From positions 1 through 21,109 of the IMG/VR virus record IMGVR_UViG_3300002231_001774: a stretch of DNA of 21,109 nucleotides. The stretch is one strand, 5' to 3'. A program made the translations under genes and the position numbers. The notes under the pieces are model-generated. The model searched no databases and was not told the DNA's origin. It saw nothing but the letters and a program-made list of their open reading frames with translations. This stretch comes from a virus. Shown one piece after another: positions 2,805 through 20,442 of the stretch (positions are counted from its first letter, which is position 1; the number at the start of each line of letters is the position of its first letter).

Positions 2805-5624
2805 CTAGGTCGGGAACGTGTTTGCTACGGGCTGAGTTCTAGCTTCACGCTGCATAGTACTTGTCTTAAACGATGCTATAATATCACCTGCAAAATCAGG
2901 ATCAGTAGCACCTTGATTTGTTATTCTAAAATCGATATCGATTCTAGGTGCTGCAAAGTTTGCTCTGAATTTCCAGAAGTCGATACCTGTTGTATCAGTA
3001 CCAGTATTACCGCCGTTATCACAATTAAGTGTAGCATCTGCGGGTGTACTTGTGTTACTGAATAAAATGAATTGCATTACATCATTAGAAGCATCTAAGT
3101 CTGATTCTGCTAGGTTTAGTGTGATCAGATAATCACCGCTAGACCACGTTGTCTGTCCTGATAACTTATCAAGTGCTACGTTAATGTGTGTAGTACCCAT
3201 GTACAGATAAGATAAGTTTCCGTAGTTCTCACTAACATCACACCAATCTTGCCCACTGTTTGTATTAGTCTTACCTACAGCAATGTATGGAGTCCTAGTA
3301 CTAGGATCACTAACACCATCACTAAACTCGTTATACTTACACACAAGTCCCACAGTATTACGAGGTGTAGCTGCTGTAAAATGTATTCGCGAGTCAAAGT
3401 TATCATCAGTTACGATCTTATTACCTGTAACCACTGTACTACCAGTGTTTAAAATCTCGATAGAACCTTTGTTTAAATAGTTATCTTTTATCGATCCTGA
3501 ACCAGTAGTGTAAATACTACAGGACTCTAGATGGTTATTAGAAACATCAGATAATGTAGCATCTAACCTGATAGCACATACAGCAGTACCAGATGCCTTT
3601 GTTCTAATGAATTCATTGTTCTTAACTGAGCTGTTTTGGCCATTATGCTTAATAAAATCGTAAGTAGTCAGGTCAGCACTAGTAATTTCAAACTCACAGT
3701 TATTAATTGCGAGTCTGCTTGTAGATGTTGAATCGACTACATCAGCTTTAGATTTTAGATCACAATTAGTAAATCCTATCTGACCACGTTCAGACTCGAT
3801 AAGAGTCATACCAGCAGCTCTAGACTCAAGTACCAAATTCTTACCTACAATACCGTGAGGAAATGAAAGCAGTGGTCCTGTAACAGCAGCATCACCCCAG
3901 ATCACACCATCAATCACAGGTACTTTTTTAGGAGTTACTATACCTAAGCTTGAAAGGATTGGGGTAGTTTTAAATGTACCACCACATAGATCTAATGATA
4001 CACGTTGAACATATCTAAAATTAGATGAATCGTTTGATAAAGCTACTTGTGAATAAGCGGATCTTATAGCATTCTGATTAGCAGTCTCAGATGTATTACC
4101 AGATACTGCACCGAACCACGGAAGTTTAACGTCATTTATGAAAGACATTTTATAATCAGCAGATACTAAGGGTGAGAATACTGGATAATTACCAGCACTT
4201 ACGTACCCAAACTCGATAAGGGAGGCAGTGGTAAATAATGATCCTTTCTCGAAAGACCAGTTAAACCTTAGGTGATAGTCGTTACCACGATCAGATGAGT
4301 TAACACCGAATGATAAGTTATATAAACCTTCAGCTACTTCGAACTCAAAATCAGTTGTACCGTTGTTAGTATTGTTAGTTATAAAGTTATTAAGAGCTGG
4401 TAGTACTTCATAGTTAGGATTACCATCAGTGATCTGAATCCACTTTGTACTAGCAAACAGCTCAATAAACTTAACTAGGTCCCAATCATCACCTACAATA
4501 ACAGGAGATGTAGATTGTACCTCAACATCTCCTAATATCCAATCAGCTCCTCCCATCGATACTGTAGTATCAGGTTTGAAAAGTACTGAGTATGGACTGA
4601 AATCCACAGATGAACTTAATAGTGCGTAATTTCCTTCTAGAACTATTCTATGTTGAGTACCCAAATTGTTTGTAAGGCTACCAAATAAGAAGGCTGAGTC
4701 TGTAGCTGCTGTGTCATCAGCATTCCACCATTCAGGGCGGACATCTGAAGGTTCTTTACAATCGATCTCTAAACCCATAGAAGGTCCTAGAGGTGTAGGA
4801 TTTACAAGATTAGTAAGCCCTTTAATGTTAACTGACTGGCAGTTAAATATCATTGTAGAGAAACCAGCTGCGTTTCTAAACACAACACCAGGGTATATCG
4901 TTACAGATAAGTCATTAACGAATGTAGTAGTAGAGTTTACCCAATAATCGCCGGCTAAATCTATCTCGATCTCTTTATAAGCTGATGAATCGCACCAGTT
5001 AATCATAGAACTAAACTGAGAGGCTACGACAAGAGAGCCATCGGAAGGAAACGCACCGAAAAGCTGAGGAGTAACTTTTTCTGATACTTGAGGTAACCAT
5101 TCCCACCTTCCGAAGGCTGGATCTCCACCGGGTATGATAATAGTTCCACCATTATCATTTACCCCAGAGGTACTATTCCATTTCATCCAGCGAGCTCCTC
5201 CGTCTCCACCTTCATAATATCCTGATACGAATACTAACTGGAATGTGCCTGCTCCAAGAGCTTTTAAATCTGCAATTGTTTCAACGAACTGAGTCGTTAA
5301 GATGTTTGAGTCAGCAGAACCAGGAGCTCCATCGACATCTGGATAGTTCCAATAATCTGCATATGTTGTAAGCCCAGTTCTTTCTTGAACTAGGATATCA
5401 TATAAACCTTCACCTAAGTGTATGCCCGTTTGACTTTCTACGAAACCTTCAATATCTAGGTTCTGAGGATTATCTGCAGGGACATCACCCGCTCTAGTAG
5501 TATAAACATCTTTAAGGGTAGTGTAATTTGTACCAGCCTCATAGAACCACACACGGCCTTCAAGTGGTTCACCGTTTTTGTCGAAGAATCTAGCACGTGG
5601 ATTTGTAAAGTTTTTAGTTGCCAT
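2805..5624 (-). CDS. Tailspike with N-terminal virion anchor and right-handed beta-helix
   Basis: 939 aa. Residues 1 to about 95 are the same anchor type as in the downstream fibre (RARFF 10-14, YEAG 28-31, DNPQNLD 51-57). Residues 114-178 match the linker found in many phage spikes: ETIADLKAL, then a GYYEGGDGG segment, NDNGGT and FGRWEWLP. Three beta-helix entry motifs follow: VTPQLFGA (184-191), VRPEWWNA (295-302) and LPWFGA (501-506). From about 610 to 805 there are short rungs ending in Asn-rich turns (NNCEF, KNNEF, SNNHL, KDNYL, TGNKI, KYNEF), typical of pectate-lyase-like solenoids. The role inferred is binding and probably cleaving a surface polysaccharide, as the P22 gp9 slot suggests. 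No catalytic residues can be assigned by eye. The ATG at 5622-5624 has a strong AGGAGG that abuts the conserved 31-base element. The TAG stop is embedded in the ribosome site of the next gene. Confidence 0.88.
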   Translation of the reverse strand: MATKNFTNPRARFFDKNGEPLEGRVWFYEAGTNYTTLKDVYTTRAGDVPADNPQNLDIEGFVESQTGIHLGEGLYDILVQERTGLTTYADYWNYPDVDGAPGSADSNILTTQFVETIADLKALGAGTFQLVFVSGYYEGGDGGARWMKWNSTSGVNDNGGTIIIPGGDPAFGRWEWLPQVSEKVTPQLFGAFPSDGSLVVASQFSSMINWCDSSAYKEIEIDLAGDYWVNSTTTFVNDLSVTIYPGVVFRNAAGFSTMIFNCQSVNIKGLTNLVNPTPLGPSMGLEIDCKEPSDVRPEWWNADDTAATDSAFLFGSLTNNLGTQHRIVLEGNYALLSSSVDFSPYSVLFKPDTTVSMGGADWILGDVEVQSTSPVIVGDDWDLVKFIELFASTKWIQITDGNPNYEVLPALNNFITNNTNNGTTDFEFEVAEGLYNLSFGVNSSDRGNDYHLRFNWSFEKGSLFTTASLIEFGYVSAGNYPVFSPLVSADYKMSFINDVKLPWFGAVSGNTSETANQNAIRSAYSQVALSNDSSNFRYVQRVSLDLCGGTFKTTPILSSLGIVTPKKVPVIDGVIWGDAAVTGPLLSFPHGIVGKNLVLESRAAGMTLIESERGQIGFTNCDLKSKADVVDSTSTSRLAINNCEFEITSADLTTYDFIKHNGQNSSVKNNEFIRTKASGTAVCAIRLDATLSDVSNNHLESCSIYTTGSGSIKDNYLNKGSIEILNTGSTVVTGNKIVTDDNFDSRIHFTAATPRNTVGLVCKYNEFSDGVSDPSTRTPYIAVGKTNTNSGQDWCDVSENYGNLSYLYMGTTHINVALDKLSGQTTWSSGDYLITLNLAESDLDASNDVMQFILFSNTSTPADATLNCDNGGNTGTDTTGIDFWKFRANFAAPRIDIDFRITNQGATDPDFAGDIIASFKTSTMQREARTQPVANTFPT

Positions 5625-5634
5625 GAGGCCTCCT

Positions 5635-5665
5635 ACTACTGTTAATCAGTATTAAGTTTAGTTAA
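5635..5665 (-). promoter_or_regulatory. Conserved 31-base element, copy A (tailspike unit)
   Basis: Read on the minus strand, this shares with the copies at 15872-15902 and 19794-19824 the invariant blocks TTAAC (positions 1-5), AAACT (7-11), AATA (13-16), TT (21-22), ACAGT (24-28) and T31. It differs from copy B at only four of 31 positions (6, 18, 19, 23). It lies in the 57-base gap between the largest ejection protein and the tailspike, four bases after a UUCG-loop hairpin. It ends exactly where the tailspike AGGAGG begins. I infer a phage promoter. If transcription starts just after the element, the leader would be only about 10 bases long. No sigma-70 -35 box can be placed consistently across the three copies. 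Confidence 0.6.
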
Positions 5666-5669
5666 GGAC

Positions 5670-5683
5670 AGGGCCGAAGCCCT
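5670..5683 (-). other. Hairpin with UUCG tetraloop at end of ejection-protein gene
   Basis: On the minus strand, AGGGC-TTCG-GCCCT forms a five-base-pair stem around a C(UUCG)G tetraloop, extendable by a U-G pair. The TAG stop of the 946-aa gene (5682-5684) overlaps its 5' arm. No U-tract follows, so it is not a standard intrinsic terminator. A 3'-end stabiliser or a transcript processing boundary is more likely. The promoter-like element starts four bases downstream. Confidence 0.6.
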
Positions 5684-8522
5684 ACCTCTCACCAGCTAGA
5701 GTATCTGCGTATCCACCTTTACCTCTTCCGAGTTTAGACTTCATTCCCTTCATAACTTCTAGCATCCTTGGATCGCTCATAAGACCTTCGACCTCCGATA
5801 CGCTCTCTTCTAAGTCCGGCCTTCTCTTAGCCTTTTTCTGGCGGACCTTAGTGGGGTCTTCCTCCCTCAGTACCTGCTTAGATACCTCTGCAAGTAGGCT
5901 CCTTACCTTGCCTTTCATAAGAGATGTTTTTGTAATATCCTTAGCCAGGATAGCTGCCTTAGTTACTAACCCTGGAGCACTGGCTGACCCTAGATAGTCT
6001 TTCCAAAAAGACCTGCTTTGTATCCTTCTAAGTACCGCAGGAGTAATGTAATCTACATTAGATCCTGTAACAGCCTGAATCTCTTTTTGTAACTTAACAG
6101 CATCTTCGAAAGCATTAGCTTTAGTAGAGATATCCATCCTACTAGATCCGATATTATCTAACCAGTCATCAACAGCAGCACCATCAGACAGATCAGGTAA
6201 CTTACCTTGTAATCCAGCAGACCTGTTAAGTTGTTCTAATTTAGATGCTATGTTTCTACCAGCAGGAGTTTTCTGTAGGAAGCCATTCACTGCTCTTTTA
6301 CGCATAGCAGATTCAGGAGTTACAGGAGAACCTGGGTAAGACTCTTTTAAGACATCAGCAGTTCTTACAGGCTCTTTAACAGCTCGTCCTGGAAATGGGT
6401 AATCGACCGGTAAATCTCCTGTAGATGATGTTACTGACTGTCCTGGATAACCAGACTTGATATCGCTTAAGATATCAAGTAGTCCAGTTTTAGAAGAAGC
6501 TCTAGCGATACGCTCTTTTAAAGTCTTATGATCAGCAGCGGATATTGTTGATGGTTGGAAACTATCAGACCATTCTTTGTACTCAGGACGGCCACTAAAC
6601 TGCGAGATTTTACCAGTGCCACCTAGTGGAGGCACATTATCACTTACAGCGTCCCTTAACTCATCTAGTGTTATATTGGCGCCCGTTAAGTCAGCAGTAG
6701 ATTCTAATGCGCTTTCACGAGCTGGTCTTGGTAAATTAAGAGACTCTTCAGCATACCTTAAAGGCATATTCTGGGTCGATACAAGCTCTGGACTAGCAAT
6801 CATACCTCGATTAGCAGCTCGTCCTGGGTGGTCGTAATCAGCAAATAGCCCCCACTCATACTTTACCTGATCTCTTACTTGATCGCGAAGAGCATAAGGT
6901 ACAGGAGCGCCCTCAACTAATTGTTCTTTTAGTCTCCTCTCTACTTCACCTTCCACTTGACCTCTAAGCTTATTCTTCTTAAGGATCTCAGCATACTCAT
7001 CTCCGACTCTAGTATCAAAACCGGATGCTAATCTATCAACATCAGATGTTAGTTGATCAGATCGAGTAGAAAGCTGACCTGATAAATCACTTAACTGATT
7101 CCTTCCGCCTGTTGAGGACACCTGACTTGGAGGAAGCATAGCTTTTGCAAGTTTCAACTCTTCATTTAGTGCGGCAGGGCTACCTGCGAGGATCTCCCTG
7201 TATAAGTCTGACCCTCCTGTTACTTTGTCTAACAACTTCCTAGTACCTGCAGATGCTAATGGAGCTGCAAGCGCGCCTAAACCACCCCCCAAGAGAGCGC
7301 CGGCAGTACTGCTTACTTCATCATCTGGCCGAGTGCCTTCGTAAGCTACATCTAGTCCTATGTTAGGTAGCTCTTTTACGAGAGACCCTAATAACTTGTT
7401 GCGAAGCGGCGCTGAAGCGCCGGCAGTCCTATTTATAATAACTTCCGCAGGTTCTATGAACTTAGCATAGCGGTTAATGCCACTCGCTATTGCCGGCATT
7501 AGTTGGCCAGCTTTTGATAGCCCGTATTTAGCAGCTCCGCCGCCAAAACCTTGGAACCCTACAAGCTCATCTACTAATTCTTGAGCACCTGTCTTATACT
7601 TATCTGGACGTGCGAACTCTTCCCAATAATCTAAACCCGGTGCATCTATACCCATAACTTTCTCAGCTATAGGCCTTAATGCTCGACCGGGTAAACGTAA
7701 TAAATCCTTAGCTCCGCCTACACCCTGTGAAAACCCTGAGCTCCCTTCTCGTTCGCGTCTTGAGTACTCAGGAAAAAATGCCTCACTCTTATCTGGTGAC
7801 CTTCCTGCTAATTCTAAAGCTTTATATTCAGCAGAAGGCATTATCTGTTTAAGGAATGGGCTTTCATATTCAGCTGAATATGAAGGAGTCCACATACCTT
7901 TCTGTTGTGGTGCAAGTCTTTTGTAACCTTCAGGATCCTGCTCTTTAAACTCTTCCAAGGTTTTAGGGCCTACTATTCGTGAAGGTATTTTGCCCTCAAT
8001 CAAGAGATCCATATCTCTATCACTTCTGGCAGCATCAATACCTTTAAAGGTATCTATTAACTTTAGGCCTTTTAGTAGGTTGTCTAGCTTCTTATTGTCT
8101 TCCATAGACTTAGTAGTACTAACGTTTCCGCCAGCAGCTATTTCCCCCCTAATAGCACTAATCATTCCTGGCAAATTCTCTCTGTTATTCCACAGTTTAT
8201 CGAAATCACCTCTATACAGACCTTTTAAGCTCTCTTTAGCGGTCTCCCTCATATCATGCCTCTGCTTACCCGTATACTTGGTTTTAACGGCTATAGCATC
8301 AGCTAATGACTGATAGTTAGGGAACTTCTTCTTAAAGCTCTTACTGATATTACCTTGGCCTTTCAATACTTTCTCAACTAGATCTCCACCATATTCTGGA
8401 TCATCTAATGCTTCGTTGAAGTCCTCTAAGGTAGGGAACATACTACGGTACTTCCTACTTTCCTTAGTAGCAATACCATAAATCATCTCACGTAGTTCAG
8501 CACTTGTTCTTTGTTTTATCAT
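5682..8522 (-). CDS. Large ejection (pilot) protein, P22 gp16 slot
   Basis: 946 aa. I cannot recognise a named domain, and the assignment rests mainly on position: last of three consecutive genes between the gp10-like adaptor and the tailspike, where P22 has gp7, gp20 and gp16. The protein is soluble, charged and helix-rich at its N-terminus (1-210). A Gly/Ala-rich, partly hydrophobic centre follows, with small-residue segments near 264-271, 322-350 and 405-425 that could meet a membrane. The C-terminus contains a basic run (RQKKAKRRP). A PGRA motif recurs three times (LPGRALRP near 277, and later HPGRAAN and FPGRAVKEP). No lysozyme or transglycosylase signature was seen. The role inferred is packaging inside the capsid and ejection with the DNA to help it cross the cell envelope. 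The ribosome site is GAGGAA and the gene starts 11 bases after the preceding stop. Confidence 0.65.
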   Translation of the reverse strand: MIKQRTSAELREMIYGIATKESRKYRSMFPTLEDFNEALDDPEYGGDLVEKVLKGQGNISKSFKKKFPNYQSLADAIAVKTKYTGKQRHDMRETAKESLKGLYRGDFDKLWNNRENLPGMISAIRGEIAAGGNVSTTKSMEDNKKLDNLLKGLKLIDTFKGIDAARSDRDMDLLIEGKIPSRIVGPKTLEEFKEQDPEGYKRLAPQQKGMWTPSYSAEYESPFLKQIMPSAEYKALELAGRSPDKSEAFFPEYSRREREGSSGFSQGVGGAKDLLRLPGRALRPIAEKVMGIDAPGLDYWEEFARPDKYKTGAQELVDELVGFQGFGGGAAKYGLSKAGQLMPAIASGINRYAKFIEPAEVIINRTAGASAPLRNKLLGSLVKELPNIGLDVAYEGTRPDDEVSSTAGALLGGGLGALAAPLASAGTRKLLDKVTGGSDLYREILAGSPAALNEELKLAKAMLPPSQVSSTGGRNQLSDLSGQLSTRSDQLTSDVDRLASGFDTRVGDEYAEILKKNKLRGQVEGEVERRLKEQLVEGAPVPYALRDQVRDQVKYEWGLFADYDHPGRAANRGMIASPELVSTQNMPLRYAEESLNLPRPARESALESTADLTGANITLDELRDAVSDNVPPLGGTGKISQFSGRPEYKEWSDSFQPSTISAADHKTLKERIARASSKTGLLDILSDIKSGYPGQSVTSSTGDLPVDYPFPGRAVKEPVRTADVLKESYPGSPVTPESAMRKRAVNGFLQKTPAGRNIASKLEQLNRSAGLQGKLPDLSDGAAVDDWLDNIGSSRMDISTKANAFEDAVKLQKEIQAVTGSNVDYITPAVLRRIQSRSFWKDYLGSASAPGLVTKAAILAKDITKTSLMKGKVRSLLAEVSKQVLREEDPTKVRQKKAKRRPDLEESVSEVEGLMSDPRMLEVMKGMKSKLGRGKGGYADTLAGER

Positions 8523-13751: not shown

Positions 13752-13777
13752 AAGCCTCCTCACTTAAGAGGAGGCTT
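13752..13777 (-). terminator. Intrinsic terminator after coat gene
   Basis: A perfect ten-base-pair inverted repeat (AAGCCTCCTC / GAGGAGGCTT) with a six-base loop is followed on the minus strand by TTTCTTTAATT. It lies four bases after the coat stop codon and ahead of the 124-aa gene. It probably ends most scaffold-coat transcripts and lets a fraction read through to the head-tail genes. Confidence 0.88.
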
Positions 13778-13781
13778 AATG

Positions 13782-14972
13782 TTATACGTTTGGTTCTTGT
13801 AGTAAACAACCGAACTGTTCACGTAGCGTTCTGTAACCGAATAAGAAGTCGAAGCGAGATAACCACTCACCTTCCTTAATATCAAAGTCACGTACAAAAC
13901 GTAAGCTCATACCATCCATAACTTGACGTGAAGCCATGTCGGTGCCTTTAGGCGTTGGAAGATCGGCAGAAGCCATTGTAAATGCATCTTTATAGAAAGC
14001 GATGTTGTTACGGATAACTTCATCAGCAGCACCATTAACTACGATTGCAGAAGCAGCAGCAGGTAATACACTGATGTTTTGGCGAGCGCCAGAAGCAGCA
14101 GAGAATACAGGATGAATTTTAACTAATGCTTGTGTAGCAGCTACAGTCACATCCTCTAATACTACGAACTCGTAAAGATCAGCATATACTTTCTTAGTTT
14201 CAGCGTGAACTTTATTAGAACCAGCTACTTTGAAACGGAATCCACGTGGGATCACATCACCGTTAGTAAGACCAGCAATAGTTGCAGTAGATGCGCCTTC
14301 AGTAACAGTAACAGTACCGATAATATCAGTAGGGTTAACTGTATTAGGAATGATGTTAGACTCATAGAAATCGAATCCACTTGTACGTCCTAAAAGACCT
14401 TCTTTATATTGCTTAGAGATAGATGCAGAATCTTGGAACAATCCTTTTAACTCATCAACTAATTCAACAGAAGTAGCAGGGTTAAGGATCATGCACCATT
14501 TACCTGATGGGGTAAGTGATTCAAACAATTTCTGACGAGCAACTAATGTGTCTTTATAAACTAGTCCACCAGATTTATATACTGCGTTAGAAACGTTTTT
14601 AGCCATTTCAAGAGTTTCAGCTTCGATAGAAGTAGCAAGTTGAGACATTGCTGGCTTGATGAACTGTTCAGAGAAGTCATTCAATGAAAGAGTTAAGTCA
14701 AGGTCAGTAAAAGTTACATCGATACCTAGCTGTTTATCAACAGTAAGAGCGATTGATTGCTCAATGAAATCTTGTGCCGCATAAGTAGAACCAGAACGAA
14801 CAGAGAACTGTGCAGGTTTACGGACACGAAGAGTTTCACCAATCTTTGCACCTGAACGGGCAAATGAGGGATCATATTGTTTATTGATCTTGTTAGTAAA
14901 TACTAACATTTCATGAAGTACTTTAAGCGCTTCTTTTGTGATCATATCGATATTGAGAAGTGTATTAGGCAT
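13782..14972 (-). CDS. Major coat protein, P22 gp5 family (HK97 fold)
   Basis: 396 aa, slightly shorter than P22 coat (430 aa). The N-terminus (about 10-110) carries the family's pattern: a helical start with ALKVLHEMLVFTNKIN, then IGETLRVRKP, QDFIEQSIALTVDKQ and LNDFSEQFIKPAMSQLA. Residues about 150-215 continue the core (KLFESLTPSGKWCMILNP). A beta-rich section at about 218-300 matches the place of the inserted I-domain of P22 coat. Residues 300-396 finish the core (RQVMDGMSLRFVRDFD). It directly follows the scaffold gene (29-base gap, TAGGAGA ribosome site) and is closed by a terminator, as expected for the most abundant virion protein. Confidence 0.93.
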   Translation of the reverse strand: MPNTLLNIDMITKEALKVLHEMLVFTNKINKQYDPSFARSGAKIGETLRVRKPAQFSVRSGSTYAAQDFIEQSIALTVDKQLGIDVTFTDLDLTLSLNDFSEQFIKPAMSQLATSIEAETLEMAKNVSNAVYKSGGLVYKDTLVARQKLFESLTPSGKWCMILNPATSVELVDELKGLFQDSASISKQYKEGLLGRTSGFDFYESNIIPNTVNPTDIIGTVTVTEGASTATIAGLTNGDVIPRGFRFKVAGSNKVHAETKKVYADLYEFVVLEDVTVAATQALVKIHPVFSAASGARQNISVLPAAASAIVVNGAADEVIRNNIAFYKDAFTMASADLPTPKGTDMASRQVMDGMSLRFVRDFDIKEGEWLSRFDFLFGYRTLREQFGCLLQEPNV

Positions 14973-15002: not shown

Positions 15003-15812
15003 TTATTCTCCGTTTCTCCAGCGTGTAAACTCGTCCATATTCATTAAGTTTGGATCTTTAGCTCCACCTTTTCCGCCACCCATTTTTGGTGCAGGAGCAG
15101 GAGCCTTTGAAACGGCTTTTTTTGGTGCAGGAGCAGGAGCACTTTCAAGCTTAATCTCTAGCTTGGTAATGAACCTATCCCTGGCTCTTTGTGAAGTACA
15201 CCTTAAGTATTGTTCAGCTAACTTTTCATCCGTAGCAATCAAGTAAGCTATCTTGGGGCCTACCTCAGATTCCTTTATGGCTTCTACTGTGTCCCTGTCT
15301 AAATCGACAGGCATGTTAGCGACTTTCTCAGCGTAATCTGGTAACTCTTCAGAGAATGATCCGATCTTATCTTGCCAGTCTTTAGCAACTTGCTGCTGTG
15401 CTCGAACTTCTTGTGCTTGTTGAGCATAAGCTTGTTGCTGCGCAGCGTTCTGTGCTTTTAGTTTCTGATCTAGCTTGTGATCGAGGTAAGCCTCTTCGTC
15501 TTCACCGAAATCTTCACGAGTGTATTCTTGCTCAGGTTCCTTAGACATCTGTGCGACTTGAGCCTGTAACTTTGCAAGTTCATTTTGCATCGCATACTTC
15601 TCTCTAGTCATTTTAGCAAAGCGTTTCTTTACCCCTTTAGGTAAATCATCTTCTGCTGGTGCCTCGTTACCTTGTTCTGCTTCAGATTGTTCTTTGGGTG
15701 TACTTTCCTCGGAACCATGTTGTTCTGCAGATATATCCTGATTATTTTCTTGAGCTTCAGTTTGCTCTATGTTTGAAGCCTCTAAACTAGAGGTTATTTC
15801 CAAGTCTTCCAT
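15003..15812 (-). CDS. Scaffolding protein
   Basis: 269 aa. Residues 1-56 are very acidic and rich in Glu, Gln and Ser. Residues 60-145 form a probable long helix or coiled coil with a Gln/Ala-rich stretch (122-141). A further helical section runs to about 222. A Pro/Ala/Lys linker with two copies of APAPAPK (225-231 and 237-243) and a Gly/Lys segment follows, then a short end segment (MNMDEFTRWRNGE) that may be the coat-binding hook. P22 scaffold also binds coat through a charged C-terminal helix. The position between portal and coat and the composition are diagnostic. The gene is preceded by the conserved 31-base element and has GGAGA as ribosome site. Confidence 0.85.
   Translation of the reverse strand: MEDLEITSSLEASNIEQTEAQENNQDISAEQHGSEESTPKEQSEAEQGNEAPAEDDLPKGVKKRFAKMTREKYAMQNELAKLQAQVAQMSKEPEQEYTREDFGEDEEAYLDHKLDQKLKAQNAAQQQAYAQQAQEVRAQQQVAKDWQDKIGSFSEELPDYAEKVANMPVDLDRDTVEAIKESEVGPKIAYLIATDEKLAEQYLRCTSQRARDRFITKLEIKLESAPAPAPKKAVSKAPAPAPKMGGGKGGAKDPNLMNMDEFTRWRNGE
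15083..15140. repeat. Direct 22-base repeat within scaffold linker
   Basis: A 22-base sequence recurs perfectly at 15083-15104 and 15119-15140, spaced 36 bases (12 codons), encoding APAPAPK twice. It looks like a recent in-frame duplication in a flexible linker. Confidence 0.8.
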
Positions 15813-15871: not shown

Positions 15872-15902
15872 ACTACTGTCAATTCGTATTAAGTTTTGTT
15901 AA
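15872..15902 (-). promoter_or_regulatory. Conserved 31-base element, copy B (scaffold-coat unit)
   Basis: This has the same invariant blocks as the copies at 5635-5665 (27 of 31 identical) and 19794-19824. This copy includes TAATACGA, identical to the first eight bases of the T7 promoter consensus, followed by TTGACAGTAGTGAA, which resembles the SP6 promoter segment TGACACTATAGAA. It lies in the 121-base non-coding gap after portal. I infer a start of transcription near 15871, giving a leader of about 59 bases for scaffold. That gap holds only this element and two hairpins, with no gene. Confidence 0.65.
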
Positions 15903-15905
15903 ATA

Positions 15906-15923
15906 GCCCCCATTACAGGAGGC
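15906..15923 (-). other. Hairpin after portal gene
   Basis: On the minus strand, GCCTCC and GGGGGC pair (one G-U) around a six-base loop, followed by TATTTAA. It sits ten bases after the portal stop and three bases before copy B of the conserved element. It could be a weak terminator or a processing boundary. Confidence 0.5.
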
Positions 15924-15933
15924 CATTAACATT

Positions 15934-18099
15934 CTATTCCAACAGATCATCTATCGACTGAACTACTGTATCACCCTCTGATTCTAACTCAGATCCCTCG
16001 GTAAATGCTACAGGGCCTCCAGGCTTAGCTGTCTGATCCATAGCACCCTCAGCGTTTACTGAAACTACGTCACTTACAGAACCCGGAATATCATTCATAG
16101 ACTTATCCACCATAGATAGGATGTTCTTACGAGCATCAGCTGCGATCTTCTTGTTATCAGCATTAGCTTTTGAACCAGCTTTAATACGTTCTACCGCGAT
16201 CTTAGTCTCGTTATTCATCTCAGTAACAACAATATCTGTTTCTGCTTTGATTTGCTCAGCTTCGATCTTAGCTTTACGATCATTCTCGTTATCCAAGATT
16301 TGGGTCTGAAGATTCTCGATAATACCCTCATATTCTTCCAACATTGCTTGCATCTGTGCCATGTTTTGATCAGCAGATTGTAATGCCGCGATTGCTTGAG
16401 GTGAAGGAGCTTCGCCACCACCATCTTCTTCTTGTAGTAATTCAGGAGGAAGTGTTTTCTTAAGACGCTCAACAACTTCTCCAGAACCAGGAGCACCTAA
16501 GTTAGCTACAAGGATATCAGCGAATAAACCAAACTTCTCTGGCATTAAACGTCCTACTTCCATAAGCATTGCATTAGTCATATCCTTTTCATTCTGAAGC
16601 ATAGGTCCAGCTTCTACTTCTGTATCGAACTCAGCAGAAGGTCTACCAGATTCTTTAACATTACCATTGATCTCTAGGATAGATCCATCCTCACCGCGAA
16701 CACTAAGCTTACGCTCAACATCATAAATTGAGTTGATAAGATCTAGAGTGATTCTACCACATTGAGTAATAGACTTCATAAGATTATCGATATAGTGATA
16801 TGAAGTGATCGATGCGTTCTGATCCTTACGTGCAATAGCTATACCTGATTGGCCAGCGATATCTTCTTGACCCATTTGACTATCAAATATCCCAGTACTT
16901 CTTTGCATATCTGCAATAGCACTAGAACGAGCATTAGTAAGATGAGTGGTTTGAGCTGTATTATCTACCCTTTGTGGAGGAGGAGCAGGCTTATCACCTA
17001 ATGATACTGCTTTGTAAGGTAGATGGTCATGAGCGTCTGTATTAGCAGTACTCCATACATCTTCATACCCTTCGAGCTGACCTTCTTCGATTAACCATGG
17101 GCTAACAGGAGCAGATTGGATAAGTTGAGCTTCAGATGATGCATAGTAGTTGATCATTGACTGTGAATCTCTCACAAGTTTAACGATACCACCCCATCCT
17201 CTCCAGCTATCTTCGAAGATCGGATTACCGAAAACTGGTACGACCGGTATATATTCAGTCTCTAAACGAGTCTCTTCTACCTTCTTACCACCTACATACT
17301 TATAAACAAGTATGTACTTCTTCTCGATATCTCTCTGACCAGCAATAGCTTCTTCAGGGATTGATCCATCTACTTCACCGTCTATGAATGTACCATCTTT
17401 CATCCAGGTCCTTTTAACAGTATCTGATTCTATCGAATAGTAAATCATTTCAGGTATTGAGTTCTCAGGTACGACCCACTCTTTATAAAGGCCTGTGTAA
17501 TTGGATAGATGCTCAGTGTCATTCTCAAGATCATACATCCTATTCGCTTCATCTTTATCGATATACTTGATTCTGAAGGCATACTTCATATCACTTCCAT
17601 CAATCTTCTCACAGTTAGGATCTATATAAATACTTGTAGGGTCAGAGATTCTCTCGATTGAGATAGTCTGATTAAGTGTCTCAGTATCCTCATATGAAGT
17701 ATTTACGATGAAATAGCCGATACCTGTAGTAACAGCATTCTCGAAAGCAGTTTCAAAAGCTTCTGATGCATTAGATTTGTACTCGATATCTCTTATAAGA
17801 CCTTGGTACAACTCATTCATCGCTTTATCATTATGCTTAACTCTCATACCAAACGGATTCTTCCTAACAGGATTAACGACTCTGTTAATGATACCGCTAG
17901 TAAAATCCATAGTAAGCACAGGTTTATCGTATCTTAATGCTCTAGCCTTTAATGACCACTGGTCGCCGGAACCGAACCTAAGATCTTCTTGCATATTCTG
18001 GTACTGTCTTGTCCAGTAGCCTTGGACCTCTTGTAACCTTTTAGAGATCTCCATGTCTTGATCAGATTTCTCGTAAGTATTAGTCTTTTTTATGTCCAT
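15934..18099 (-). CDS. Portal protein, P22 gp1 family
   Basis: 721 aa, nearly the length of P22 portal (725 aa). The N-terminal half carries the family pattern: RFGSGDQWSLKAR near residues 41-53, LTMDFTSGIINRVVNPVRKN, a GIGYFIVNT strand and ISDPTSIYIDPN. Residues around 300-420 hold the crown and stem region (SWRGWGGIVKLVRDSQSMINYY, then SGIAIARKDQNAS). Residues 575-659 form a long charged helix or coiled coil, matching the C-terminal barrel of P22 portal. A disordered acidic tail ends in DDLLE. The protein forms the dodecameric ring at one capsid vertex through which DNA enters and leaves. Its first ten bases overlap the end of the large terminase gene, with AAAGGAAA as ribosome site. Confidence 0.94.
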   Translation of the reverse strand: MDIKKTNTYEKSDQDMEISKRLQEVQGYWTRQYQNMQEDLRFGSGDQWSLKARALRYDKPVLTMDFTSGIINRVVNPVRKNPFGMRVKHNDKAMNELYQGLIRDIEYKSNASEAFETAFENAVTTGIGYFIVNTSYEDTETLNQTISIERISDPTSIYIDPNCEKIDGSDMKYAFRIKYIDKDEANRMYDLENDTEHLSNYTGLYKEWVVPENSIPEMIYYSIESDTVKRTWMKDGTFIDGEVDGSIPEEAIAGQRDIEKKYILVYKYVGGKKVEETRLETEYIPVVPVFGNPIFEDSWRGWGGIVKLVRDSQSMINYYASSEAQLIQSAPVSPWLIEEGQLEGYEDVWSTANTDAHDHLPYKAVSLGDKPAPPPQRVDNTAQTTHLTNARSSAIADMQRSTGIFDSQMGQEDIAGQSGIAIARKDQNASITSYHYIDNLMKSITQCGRITLDLINSIYDVERKLSVRGEDGSILEINGNVKESGRPSAEFDTEVEAGPMLQNEKDMTNAMLMEVGRLMPEKFGLFADILVANLGAPGSGEVVERLKKTLPPELLQEEDGGGEAPSPQAIAALQSADQNMAQMQAMLEEYEGIIENLQTQILDNENDRKAKIEAEQIKAETDIVVTEMNNETKIAVERIKAGSKANADNKKIAADARKNILSMVDKSMNDIPGSVSDVVSVNAEGAMDQTAKPGGPVAFTEGSELESEGDTVVQSIDDLLE

Positions 18100-19379
18100 G
18101 ATGAACGTTTCCTTTTTGTTAACTTCTTAAGATCTACTTTATTCTGTCCTGCTTTCCTGAAGAAGGACATCGTAAAAGCATCTAAGTAATCCGGGGATAC
18201 ACCTAAACGCTTCTTTAACTCACTCTTAGCTTCTATCTGAAGCTGGTTCTTAGAGTTATACTTGTACTCTATGCTAGACATCTCTTTAATAAGCGATGGG
18301 TGGTTAGGCAAACAACCTCTATCCAACCACTTAAGTGCCTCATTATAAGTGTCTGCTCTAGCATTGAAGAAGTGTGGGTCGTTTGCTTTATAGCCTCCAT
18401 TGAATTCTATGATCCTACAGACCTTTCCAATGGATTTCTTGAGCATATCAACTAAGCCACCTCCTACACCAACACCATCAACTACCAAGAACTTAATACC
18501 TTTAGACATGATCTCATTTGCCACATTAACTGCTAACGTATCTAATGAGATCTTGCCCCAAGTTTTGAAGTCATCAACTTGATAGCCTCTTCTTACGCAT
18601 AATACTGATAAGTCCTCTCCATATCTTGAGACATCGAGAGCAGCAATAGCAGGTACTTCAATCTTAACTGATTCCCTACCTACTGATTCCCTTATCTTCT
18701 TATAAGGAAACATCTTATTATCACCGACGGATTCGAACTGTCCTTCATAAATATGGAGATATTTCTCATAGAAGTGTTCTTTCATATCGTTGATATCATT
18801 TAGCATACTTGTAGGCAGATACGGGTTTTGATCGTAATTAGCTCTCATAAGTATCATATCTCTTGGAGGGTGTTCTCCTAGAAATAATTCTGCTGTTGCA
18901 TCAGTGGGGAGCCTAGGATTAAATAAGACCCAAAGCTCCGCTTGTTTATTACGCATAATTGTCGGGATAAGGTATTTCCATGACTCAGCATTTACTGTCT
19001 CAGCTTCCTCTACGATTGTTATATCGATGTTAGCTATAGACTTGATGCTCGCTATGTTTCGTTCTAACCCCTTGAAAATCATCTCAGAACCAGTATCTAC
19101 GCATATGATCCTGGTCTTTTGTATATCAAACTCATCTTCAAGTCCGTAGTCATGTATTCTGTCGACTACTTGTTGGTAAGATGAATCAGCAATCGAGTTC
19201 ATAAACTGTCTTGCTTGTAAAATCTTAACTGTATACTCTCTCATAAAAAAGATTGCAGCGTCTGATGCTGCTACTGATTTACCAGATGCACGTCCTGAAA
19301 CCGCTACCTTGTAGCGATGCTTCTCCCAGAATCCTCTAAATTGAGGAAGTGGTTTCATGTCGACGTACTCTATACTCAT
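18090..19379 (-). CDS. Terminase large subunit (packaging ATPase and nuclease)
   Basis: 429 aa. The ATPase domain has a Walker A motif GRASGKS at 29-35, a Walker B IDITIVEE at 118-125 and an LFNPR coupling-type motif at 152-156. The RNase-H-like nuclease domain starts near 215, with acidic residues in expected contexts: D249 in AALDVSRYGED, D301 in FLVVDGVGVGGG, and D397 or D400 in SPDYLDAF. It pumps DNA into the procapsid at the portal and cuts the concatemer. It resembles the Terminase_3 type. Its ATG follows directly on the TAG of the small subunit gene (TAGATG), and its end overlaps portal by ten bases. Confidence 0.95.
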   Translation of the reverse strand: MSIEYVDMKPLPQFRGFWEKHRYKVAVSGRASGKSVAASDAAIFFMREYTVKILQARQFMNSIADSSYQQVVDRIHDYGLEDEFDIQKTRIICVDTGSEMIFKGLERNIASIKSIANIDITIVEEAETVNAESWKYLIPTIMRNKQAELWVLFNPRLPTDATAELFLGEHPPRDMILMRANYDQNPYLPTSMLNDINDMKEHFYEKYLHIYEGQFESVGDNKMFPYKKIRESVGRESVKIEVPAIAALDVSRYGEDLSVLCVRRGYQVDDFKTWGKISLDTLAVNVANEIMSKGIKFLVVDGVGVGGGLVDMLKKSIGKVCRIIEFNGGYKANDPHFFNARADTYNEALKWLDRGCLPNHPSLIKEMSSIEYKYNSKNQLQIEAKSELKKRLGVSPDYLDAFTMSFFRKAGQNKVDLKKLTKRKRSSWT

Positions 19380-19742
19380 CTATTCTTCTCTGTCACCAAA
19401 TGACACTCTTATCTTCTTCGTAATAGTAGTATCAATTTTCTGTTCGATCTCCCTCTTCTGAGTCTCGGACACTTGGAATGCAGCTGATAAAAAGAACTTC
19501 GCTTTATTAAGATCTAAAGCGTCACCTGAATTACCTTTTTCAGTCATTTTTGCCTCTGCAATAGACTTAGCTAGGTCGTATGCATCAGAAAACTCTGGAT
19601 GTACACCTCTCCATTCATGTAAAGTCTGCTTAGATACCATTAGATCTGCACACCACATAATGGGTAATTGTCCTTCTTTCGAAAGCTCTACTATTCTCTT
19701 ACAATAAGACTTCTTATATTTGCTAGGCCTACCTGCTGCCAT
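19380..19742 (-). CDS. Terminase small subunit (DNA-recognition)
   Basis: 120 aa. A basic GRPSKY start (4-9) is followed by a helix-turn-helix, with MWCADLMVSKQTLHEW at 29-44 and then a HPEFSDAYDLAK helix. The C-terminal half is charged and helical, suited to ring assembly. It is shorter than P22 gp3 (162 aa). It selects phage DNA and delivers it to the large subunit encoded directly downstream. A very strong AGGAGGA ribosome site precedes the ATG and lies within the palindrome CTCCTAGGAG. The leader upstream is structured and begins at copy C of the conserved element. Confidence 0.88.
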   Translation of the reverse strand: MAAGRPSKYKKSYCKRIVELSKEGQLPIMWCADLMVSKQTLHEWRGVHPEFSDAYDLAKSIAEAKMTEKGNSGDALDLNKAKFFLSAAFQVSETQKREIEQKIDTTITKKIRVSFGDREE

Positions 19743-19795: not shown

Positions 19796-19824
19796 AACTG
19801 TTAAGTATTATTGAGTTTTGTTAA
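19794..19824 (-). promoter_or_regulatory. Conserved 31-base element, copy C (terminase-portal unit)
   Basis: This matches the copies at 5635-5665 and 15872-15902 at 22 positions shared by all three. It overlaps the last codons and the TAA stop of the 178-aa gene: the shared TTAACAAAACT encodes part of its final VNKTQ. I infer a promoter for terminases and portal with transcription starting near 19793. Confidence 0.55.
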
Positions 19825-20344
19825 CTGATTCTATGTTTGCTGGTGAATTACTTAAGTCTTTTAAGTAGGATACGAACTCTTTATCTAGTCCTCGATCCTT
19901 TAAGACATCTCTCATGATCATAGAGACGTATGCTGGTGCTATGCCATTTAAGTATGCTACTACTCGGTATTTAGGAGTTTGTACCGCTGACCCTACCACA
20001 GCTCGTATAGTAGGGTTTTTAGAGTACTTCTGTTCTATGTAGTCTAAGTTACGCTTTATAATAGAAGTACTGGGATATTGAAGCTCTGATAGCCACCTGA
20101 TAGCTTTCTGTATAGACTTTACTCTCTGTGCTATTGTGGGCTGCGGGATACCTAATATATTACTAGCAACTATCTGGGGCTTTGCATCGATATAAAGTGT
20201 TTGATATATACTTCTGTCTTTAGAAGTAAGCATAGTAGATAACTCTCTCATATAAGTTATCTCGTCTTCTCTTCTATCTATTGAGGACCACATCTCTTGA
20301 GCGTCTTCATTAGTTACTGTTCTGCAGATTATATTGTGATCCAT
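19808..20344 (-). CDS. Sigma-region-4-like helix-turn-helix protein, possible transcription regulator
   Basis: 178 aa. Residues 33-85 resemble sigma-70 region 4: a first helix with LSTMLTSKDRSIYQTLYID, then KPQIVASNILGIPQPTIAQR (55-74) as helix-turn-helix with the ILGIPQPTIAQRVKSIQKAI pattern (63-82). The rest is helical with a second possible DNA-binding turn (GIAPAYVSMIMRDVL at 134-148). Phage late sigma-like proteins such as T4 gp55 have similar size, but T4 gp55 is not obviously of this type. The gene sits alone between a terminator (upstream) and the first conserved element (downstream), ahead of all virion genes, so late gene control is plausible. AAGGA is the ribosome site. A plain DNA-binding repressor or packaging accessory is also possible. 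Confidence 0.75.
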   Translation of the reverse strand: MDHNIICRTVTNEDAQEMWSSIDRREDEITYMRELSTMLTSKDRSIYQTLYIDAKPQIVASNILGIPQPTIAQRVKSIQKAIRWLSELQYPSTSIIKRNLDYIEQKYSKNPTIRAVVGSAVQTPKYRVVAYLNGIAPAYVSMIMRDVLKDRGLDKEFVSYLKDLSNSPANIESVNKTQ

Positions 20345-20365
20345 AATATCCTTGTTAGTTTTGTT

Positions 20366-20391
20366 AGTCTAGACTGACATATAAGGATATG
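20366..20391. promoter_or_regulatory. Palindromic leader, possible operator for the regulator gene
   Basis: A perfect ten-base palindrome AGTCTAGACT (20366-20375) is followed after two bases by a CATAT-AAGG-ATATG inverted repeat (20378-20391). Both lie 22-47 bases upstream of the 178-aa start. They could be binding sites for a dimeric regulator or small mRNA hairpins. The rest of the gap 20345-20407 shows no gene. Confidence 0.3.
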
Positions 20392-20407: not shown

Positions 20408-20437
20408 TTAAAAAAGGCTCCCTTGATTAAGGGAGCC
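20408..20437 (-). terminator. Intrinsic terminator after small-gene cluster
   Basis: On the minus strand, GGCTCCCTT and AAGGGAGCC form a perfect nine-base-pair stem with a four-base loop, followed by six T residues and AATAA. It separates the upstream small genes from the regulator and virion genes. Confidence 0.92.
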
Positions 20438-20442
20438 TCTTC

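Follow-up and report, generated by a model that had tools for sequence, protein, structure and literature searches.

How the virion genes of P22-portal marine podoviruses are switched on was not found described in the literature, and the gene lying directly ahead of the terminase genes in this virus raises the question of whether its product is the switch. The window, the whole stretch of 21,109 nucleotides that was analysed, is part of a partial virus record of 21,521 bases. Its minus strand encodes terS, TerL, the portal, a probable scaffold, a P22-type coat and more structural genes, which is the virion set of a P22-portal podovirus. The type of source samples points to a marine lineage. 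Two small ORFs and a strong intrinsic terminator lie upstream of the gene in question, and the order at the locus is terminator, regulator candidate, copy C of a repeated DNA element, terS. The best explanation, at a probability of about 55%, is that this gene encodes the late-transcription regulator of the phage, a protein with tandem helix-turn-helix (HTH) domains of which the first has a sigma-region-4 fold. The features of the locus and the virion operon were as follows.

20411..20442, minus strand: intrinsic terminator at the end of the upstream operon of small genes (-21.8 kcal/mol, z -5.9, with TTTTTT after it)
19808..20344, minus strand: late-regulator candidate gene, sigma-4-like, 178 aa (ORF; ortholog at the equivalent place in viral contig L009, BLASTP E 7e-25)
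19380..19742, minus strand: terminase small subunit, terS (phrog_309, E 1e-10)
18090..19379, minus strand: terminase large subunit, TerL (Terminase_3, E 3e-36)
15934..18099, minus strand: portal protein, P22 type (P22_portal, E 7e-112)
15003..15812, minus strand: probable scaffold (by position only, between portal and coat)
13782..14972, minus strand: major coat protein, P22 type (P22_CoatProtein, E 7e-35)

The regulator candidate is a real gene. Its ORF has the positions given in the original prediction and runs on the minus strand, from an ATG at 20344 to a stop at 19808; the plus strand across the same positions is full of stops. Its predicted position, past a terminator and ahead of the virion operon, also held, with the terminator stem at approximately 20442-20411 upstream and terS, TerL, portal and coat downstream. 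Contig L009 was found in a scan of viral contigs with the coat protein, its coat being 70% identical. The L009 ortholog is a 5'-truncated protein of 155 aa encoded directly ahead of terS, with 29% identity to the window protein. The regulators are 29-30% identical compared to 58% for TerL, 59% for portal and 70% for coat.

The original prediction had named an HTH resembling sigma region 4, with structure prediction and profile search as the check. The fold was recovered, solidly only through the L009 ortholog. The window protein alone gave weak matches (sigma-factor profile phrog_1740, E 0.0024; TIGR02937, 17.5 bits against a cut-off of 42.9) and a poor structure model (pLDDT 59.5). The ortholog scored above the curated cut-offs of Sigma70_r4_2 (33.0 bits against 25.7) and of the sigma70-ECF superfamily model TIGR02937 (46.2 bits against 42.9). 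Its structure model had a pLDDT of 82.5 and showed two helical HTH domains. Residues 8-78 of this model matched sigma region 4 structures at Z 8.8-10.8, and these made up nearly the entire top 50. In a structural search among viral proteins the best-ranked matches were mainly phage sigma factors, none of them at E <= 0.001. Taken together, the profiles and the model make the sigma-4 fold well supported through the ortholog. The two domains were placed on the window protein as follows.

20084..20269, minus strand: domain 1, approximately residues 26-87, predicted four-helix HTH of sigma region 4 type (ortholog profiles and ortholog model)
19847..20071, minus strand: domain 2, approximately residues 92-166, second predicted helical HTH (model helices and structural matches)

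Domain 2, taken from the weaker window model, resembled sigma-4 and LuxR-type HTH structures at Z 5-6.5. An HTH_36 match in domain 2 of the ortholog had an E value of 7.5e-5, below the cut-off of that profile, and the structural match list of the ortholog was filled by domain 1, so that domain 2 was only weakly tested there. Approximately 25 residues precede region 4 in the window protein, leaving no room for region 2. Sigma70_r2 had no match at E <= 1 in the window record or L009, while its controls were positive. As the chain cannot accommodate region 2 and neither record yielded one, the protein is not a complete sigma factor. By profile and model it is a member of the sigma-region-4 domain superfamily, of DNA-binding type by its fold. 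The sigma-like reading of the original prediction stands for the fold, as seen in the ortholog, and falls for a sigma factor proper.

A DNA-binding protein of this kind could also be a second small-terminase-like protein, or another protein with no role in transcription. The gene adjoins terS, and the HTH matches of the ortholog include the small-terminase profile phrog_2538 (E 3e-4). Against this, a clear TerS is encoded right after it, and the matches to sigma-4 are much stronger and account for most of the structural list, making such a role very improbable.

What the regulator candidate would bind is a repeated element of 28 bp. The pattern TTAACWAAACTYAATANNNMTTRACAGT occurred exactly three times in the window, all on the minus strand, with 0 expected from shuffles. 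Each copy contains three direct TTAACA repeats at a spacing of exactly 10 bp. Written in tens, copy A is TTAACTaaac TTAATActga TTAACAgt, copy B is TTAACAaaac TTAATAcgaa TTGACAgt and copy C is TTAACAaaac TCAATAatac TTAACAgt. The 10-bp periodicity had a probability of 5e-5 under a column-permutation null which keeps the conservation between copies, and no other sites of equal strength at this period were found within the window. Repeats that are one helical turn apart would suit a protein, or proteins, bound on one face of the DNA. The shorter motif TAAC[AT]AAACT had exactly four sites in the window where approximately 0.18 were expected. These were copies A, B and C and a site in the leader of the regulator gene itself.

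19797..19824, minus strand: element copy C, TTAACAAAAC TCAATAATAC TTAACAGT, 82 nt before the terS ATG, overlapping the last codons of the regulator gene
15875..15902, minus strand: element copy B, 90 nt before the gene in the scaffold position, just past a hairpin
5638..5665, minus strand: element copy A, immediately upstream of the AGGAGG of a tail-fibre-like gene (ATG at 5624)
20352..20367, minus strand: half-site CTAACAAAACTAACAA resembling the element, in the leader of the regulator gene itself, 22 nt before its ATG (TAAC[AT]AAACT match)
20366..20375, minus strand: perfect 10-bp palindrome AGTCTAGACT beside the half-site, a possible operator

The predicted overlap of copy C with the end of the regulator gene was seen, its left half encoding the final codons V-N-K-T-Q-stop. 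The exact element was absent from L009, and an exact search of viral contigs was likewise empty. A diverged left part of the element, matching at 16 of 21 positions, is present in L009 at the identical distance of 82 nt before the terS ATG. None of 20,000 shuffles matched at that position and 0.1% did so anywhere. The right part of the element was not recognisable in L009. Between the window and L009 the regulator and the element have both diverged faster than TerL, portal and coat, as would a co-evolving pair. Copies A and B each directly follow a GC-rich hairpin that lacks a clear T-run (5666-5686 and 15902-15927, minus strand). The hairpin before copy B is strong (z -3.3), and these hairpins may be insulators or processing sites. 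Hairpins after copies B and C were rejected as part of the element as shuffled sequences folded equally well (z 0.3 and 0.0). The element was also set aside as a pac site given its three dispersed copies.

The half-site ahead of the regulator's own ATG suggests autoregulation. It is also compatible with a protein that represses the late genes early in infection, and itself, rather than activating them. The half-site and the palindrome lie in the leader of the regulator gene, and copy A overlaps the stretch where transcription of its gene would be expected to begin. The sigma-4 fold commonly serves to contact polymerase, which speaks against a repressor. In characterised phages with a comparable layout, a positive factor encoded at that position turns on the late operons (PMC13123087), and repression was judged quite improbable.

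Copy A constrains where transcription would begin. Because AGGAGG directly follows it, transcription must begin within the element or at its end. No sigma-70 -10 box was found at a usable distance from copy A, and a sigma-70 promoter reading was rejected as the best -10 matches had only 2-3 of 6 positions. Promoter-like sites across the window were no commoner than in shuffles. Copy A is a poor fit for a simple activator working on a host sigma-70 promoter. The element would span approximately -33 to -5, nearer to a core promoter than to an upstream activator site. The start position at copy A leaves three versions, namely an activator with an unusual host promoter, a split or region-4-replacing sigma-like factor, and the promoter of another polymerase.

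The last version takes the elements to be promoters read by a single-subunit RNA polymerase of the phage, whose gene would lie in the early half of the genome that is missing, with the sigma-4-like protein regulating, for example, early or middle genes. A start at the 3' end of the element, as copy A demands, is how promoters of single-subunit polymerases are read. From position 11 on (TAATAC..ACAGTAG) the element aligned with the T7 promoter (shuffle p 0.006 for copy A and 0.017 for copy B), and copy A aligned with the KP34 promoter (p 0.002; KP34 sequence from PMC6834552). The sequence TAATAC(G), with which the T7 promoter starts, is found in copies A and B, whether by chance or as a phage-polymerase signal. 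However, these promoter comparisons were post hoc, and for copy C the resemblance was not significant (p 0.19 for T7 and 0.12 for KP34). The conserved block begins approximately 10 bp before the T7-like part, and the part of the element that is kept best is also upstream of it. The left part alone recurs before the regulator gene and is what L009 keeps. The polymerase profile PF00940 had no match in the 21.5-kb record, which covers only part of the genome. It also matched none of 42 relatives with P22-type coat or portal proteins, approximately 27 of the 42 being longer than 30 kb (14 named P22-portal phages and 28 viral contigs with related coats). The T7 positive control was detected. The polymerase reading, the leading rival, was considered somewhat unlikely.

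In a split sigma factor this chain would provide region 4, another protein of phage or host would provide region 2, and the element would be read as -35 to -10. Region 4 is present in the chain without region 2. Repeat 1, TTAACA, resembles the -35 sequence TTGACA, and the implied start at copy A is approximately 30-33 bp downstream. The arrangement has known precedents (SigO/RsoA in Bacillus and gp33/gp55 in T4). Against it, a region-2 partner was not found in either partial record and the chain carries a second HTH, which to our knowledge is not part of known split sigma factors. This arrangement was considered unlikely. It is one mechanistic version of the late-regulator explanation, and the two confidences overlap.

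The late-regulator explanation draws on the ORF, its ortholog, the sigma-4 fold of that ortholog, the three element copies, their 10-bp periodicity and the position of the diverged element in L009. The regulator would read copies C, B and A and so turn on the late operons. It would bring in RNA polymerase, most likely that of the host, with transcription beginning close to the 3' end of each element. A more specific form, regarded as doubtful, is that the two tandem HTH domains with no region 2 read the three helically phased TTAACA repeats from approximately -35 to -10 and redirect the host polymerase by replacing or bypassing sigma-70 region 4. If true, this would be a sigma-like factor that recognises repeats and not a -35/-10 pair.

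The distribution of the regulator was examined among relatives. A tblastn search of named phages with either protein gave no homolog, with one chance-level match at E 1. L009 was the only contig returned by scans of viral contigs with the window protein, the ortholog or the pair, and no coat relatives were found in GTDB genomes. No credible match was seen in 80 P22-coat loci with an HMM built from the pair. Sigma70_r4_2 had no match over its cut-off in 41 records from the set of P22-coat loci, and genes upstream of terS in several P22-portal phages had no sigma-4 profile match. Among the coat relatives examined the regulator gene was seen in L009 only, one other lineage, a count limited by the many contigs that end before the region upstream of terS. 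On present data the regulator looks confined to one small lineage. Of the relatives examined, those close to complete lack both a T7-type polymerase and this regulator. In MW202483 (L015 38634-38762, minus strand) a short unannotated ORF that does not adjoin terS matched sigma region 4 above the cut-off.

A number of other features were observed. A strong terminator-like hairpin lies directly 3' of the coat gene (13752-13777, minus strand), and the L009 coat gene is likewise trailed by a comparable GC hairpin with a T-run. The adjacent tail-fibre-like genes at 1-2793 and 2805-5624 (minus strand) start with a similar motif, RARFF...YEAG, which suggests a duplicated attachment module. At the equivalent place in L009 (13778-16504) the genes past the last forward-strand virion gene are on the opposite strand and include a peptidase-like lysis candidate; the tail-fibre-like genes of the window are on the same strand as its virion genes. 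A 17-nt perfectly complementary pair was found between the regulator gene (20063-20079) and the portal gene (16886-16902).

If the late-regulator explanation is true, a small sigma-4-type protein and a 28-bp repeat element would form a compact late switch, in which a sigma domain has been put to new use as a free-standing late regulator. Late promoters in uncultured phages could then be annotated by a signature of three TTAACA-like repeats with 10-bp spacing ahead of terS.

Compared to known systems, the regulator is best read as working like the Ltr/RinA activators, by analogy and with no claim to membership of that family. In the Ltr/RinA/ArpU late regulators of Gram-positive phages (e.g. 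Phi13 Ltr, PMC13123087) the gene of a small DNA-binding protein likewise lies just upstream of the packaging operon, and one factor serves the virion genes. Unlike these, the window encodes tandem HTH domains with a sigma-4 domain in a P22-portal podovirus, and has three dispersed element copies in place of a single promoter. The ArpU profile TIGR01637 had no match at E <= 10 in the window record or L009, and by this profile the protein is not ArpU. The T7 and KP34 promoters share with the element a TAATA-type core, a start at the 3' end and several copies before virion genes. The element differs in being longer upstream and in its 10-bp repeats, and their polymerase was not found in relatives. 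The sigma factors of phiEco32-like phages, such as 7-11 gp47, also have region-4 homology, and gp47 reads bipartite late promoters scattered over the virion genes (PMC8948821). It is a complete sigma factor that works with host core in vitro (PMC8948821), unlike the window protein which is without region 2 and has a second HTH. In T4 gp33/gp55 (PMC2988020) and Bacillus SigO/RsoA (PMC10141391) a region-4-like function is likewise on a separate polypeptide; unlike in these pairs, a region-2 partner was not found in the window record or L009. In the window element the upstream part is conserved best, in contrast to the late promoters of T4, which lack a conserved -35 element (PMC2988020).
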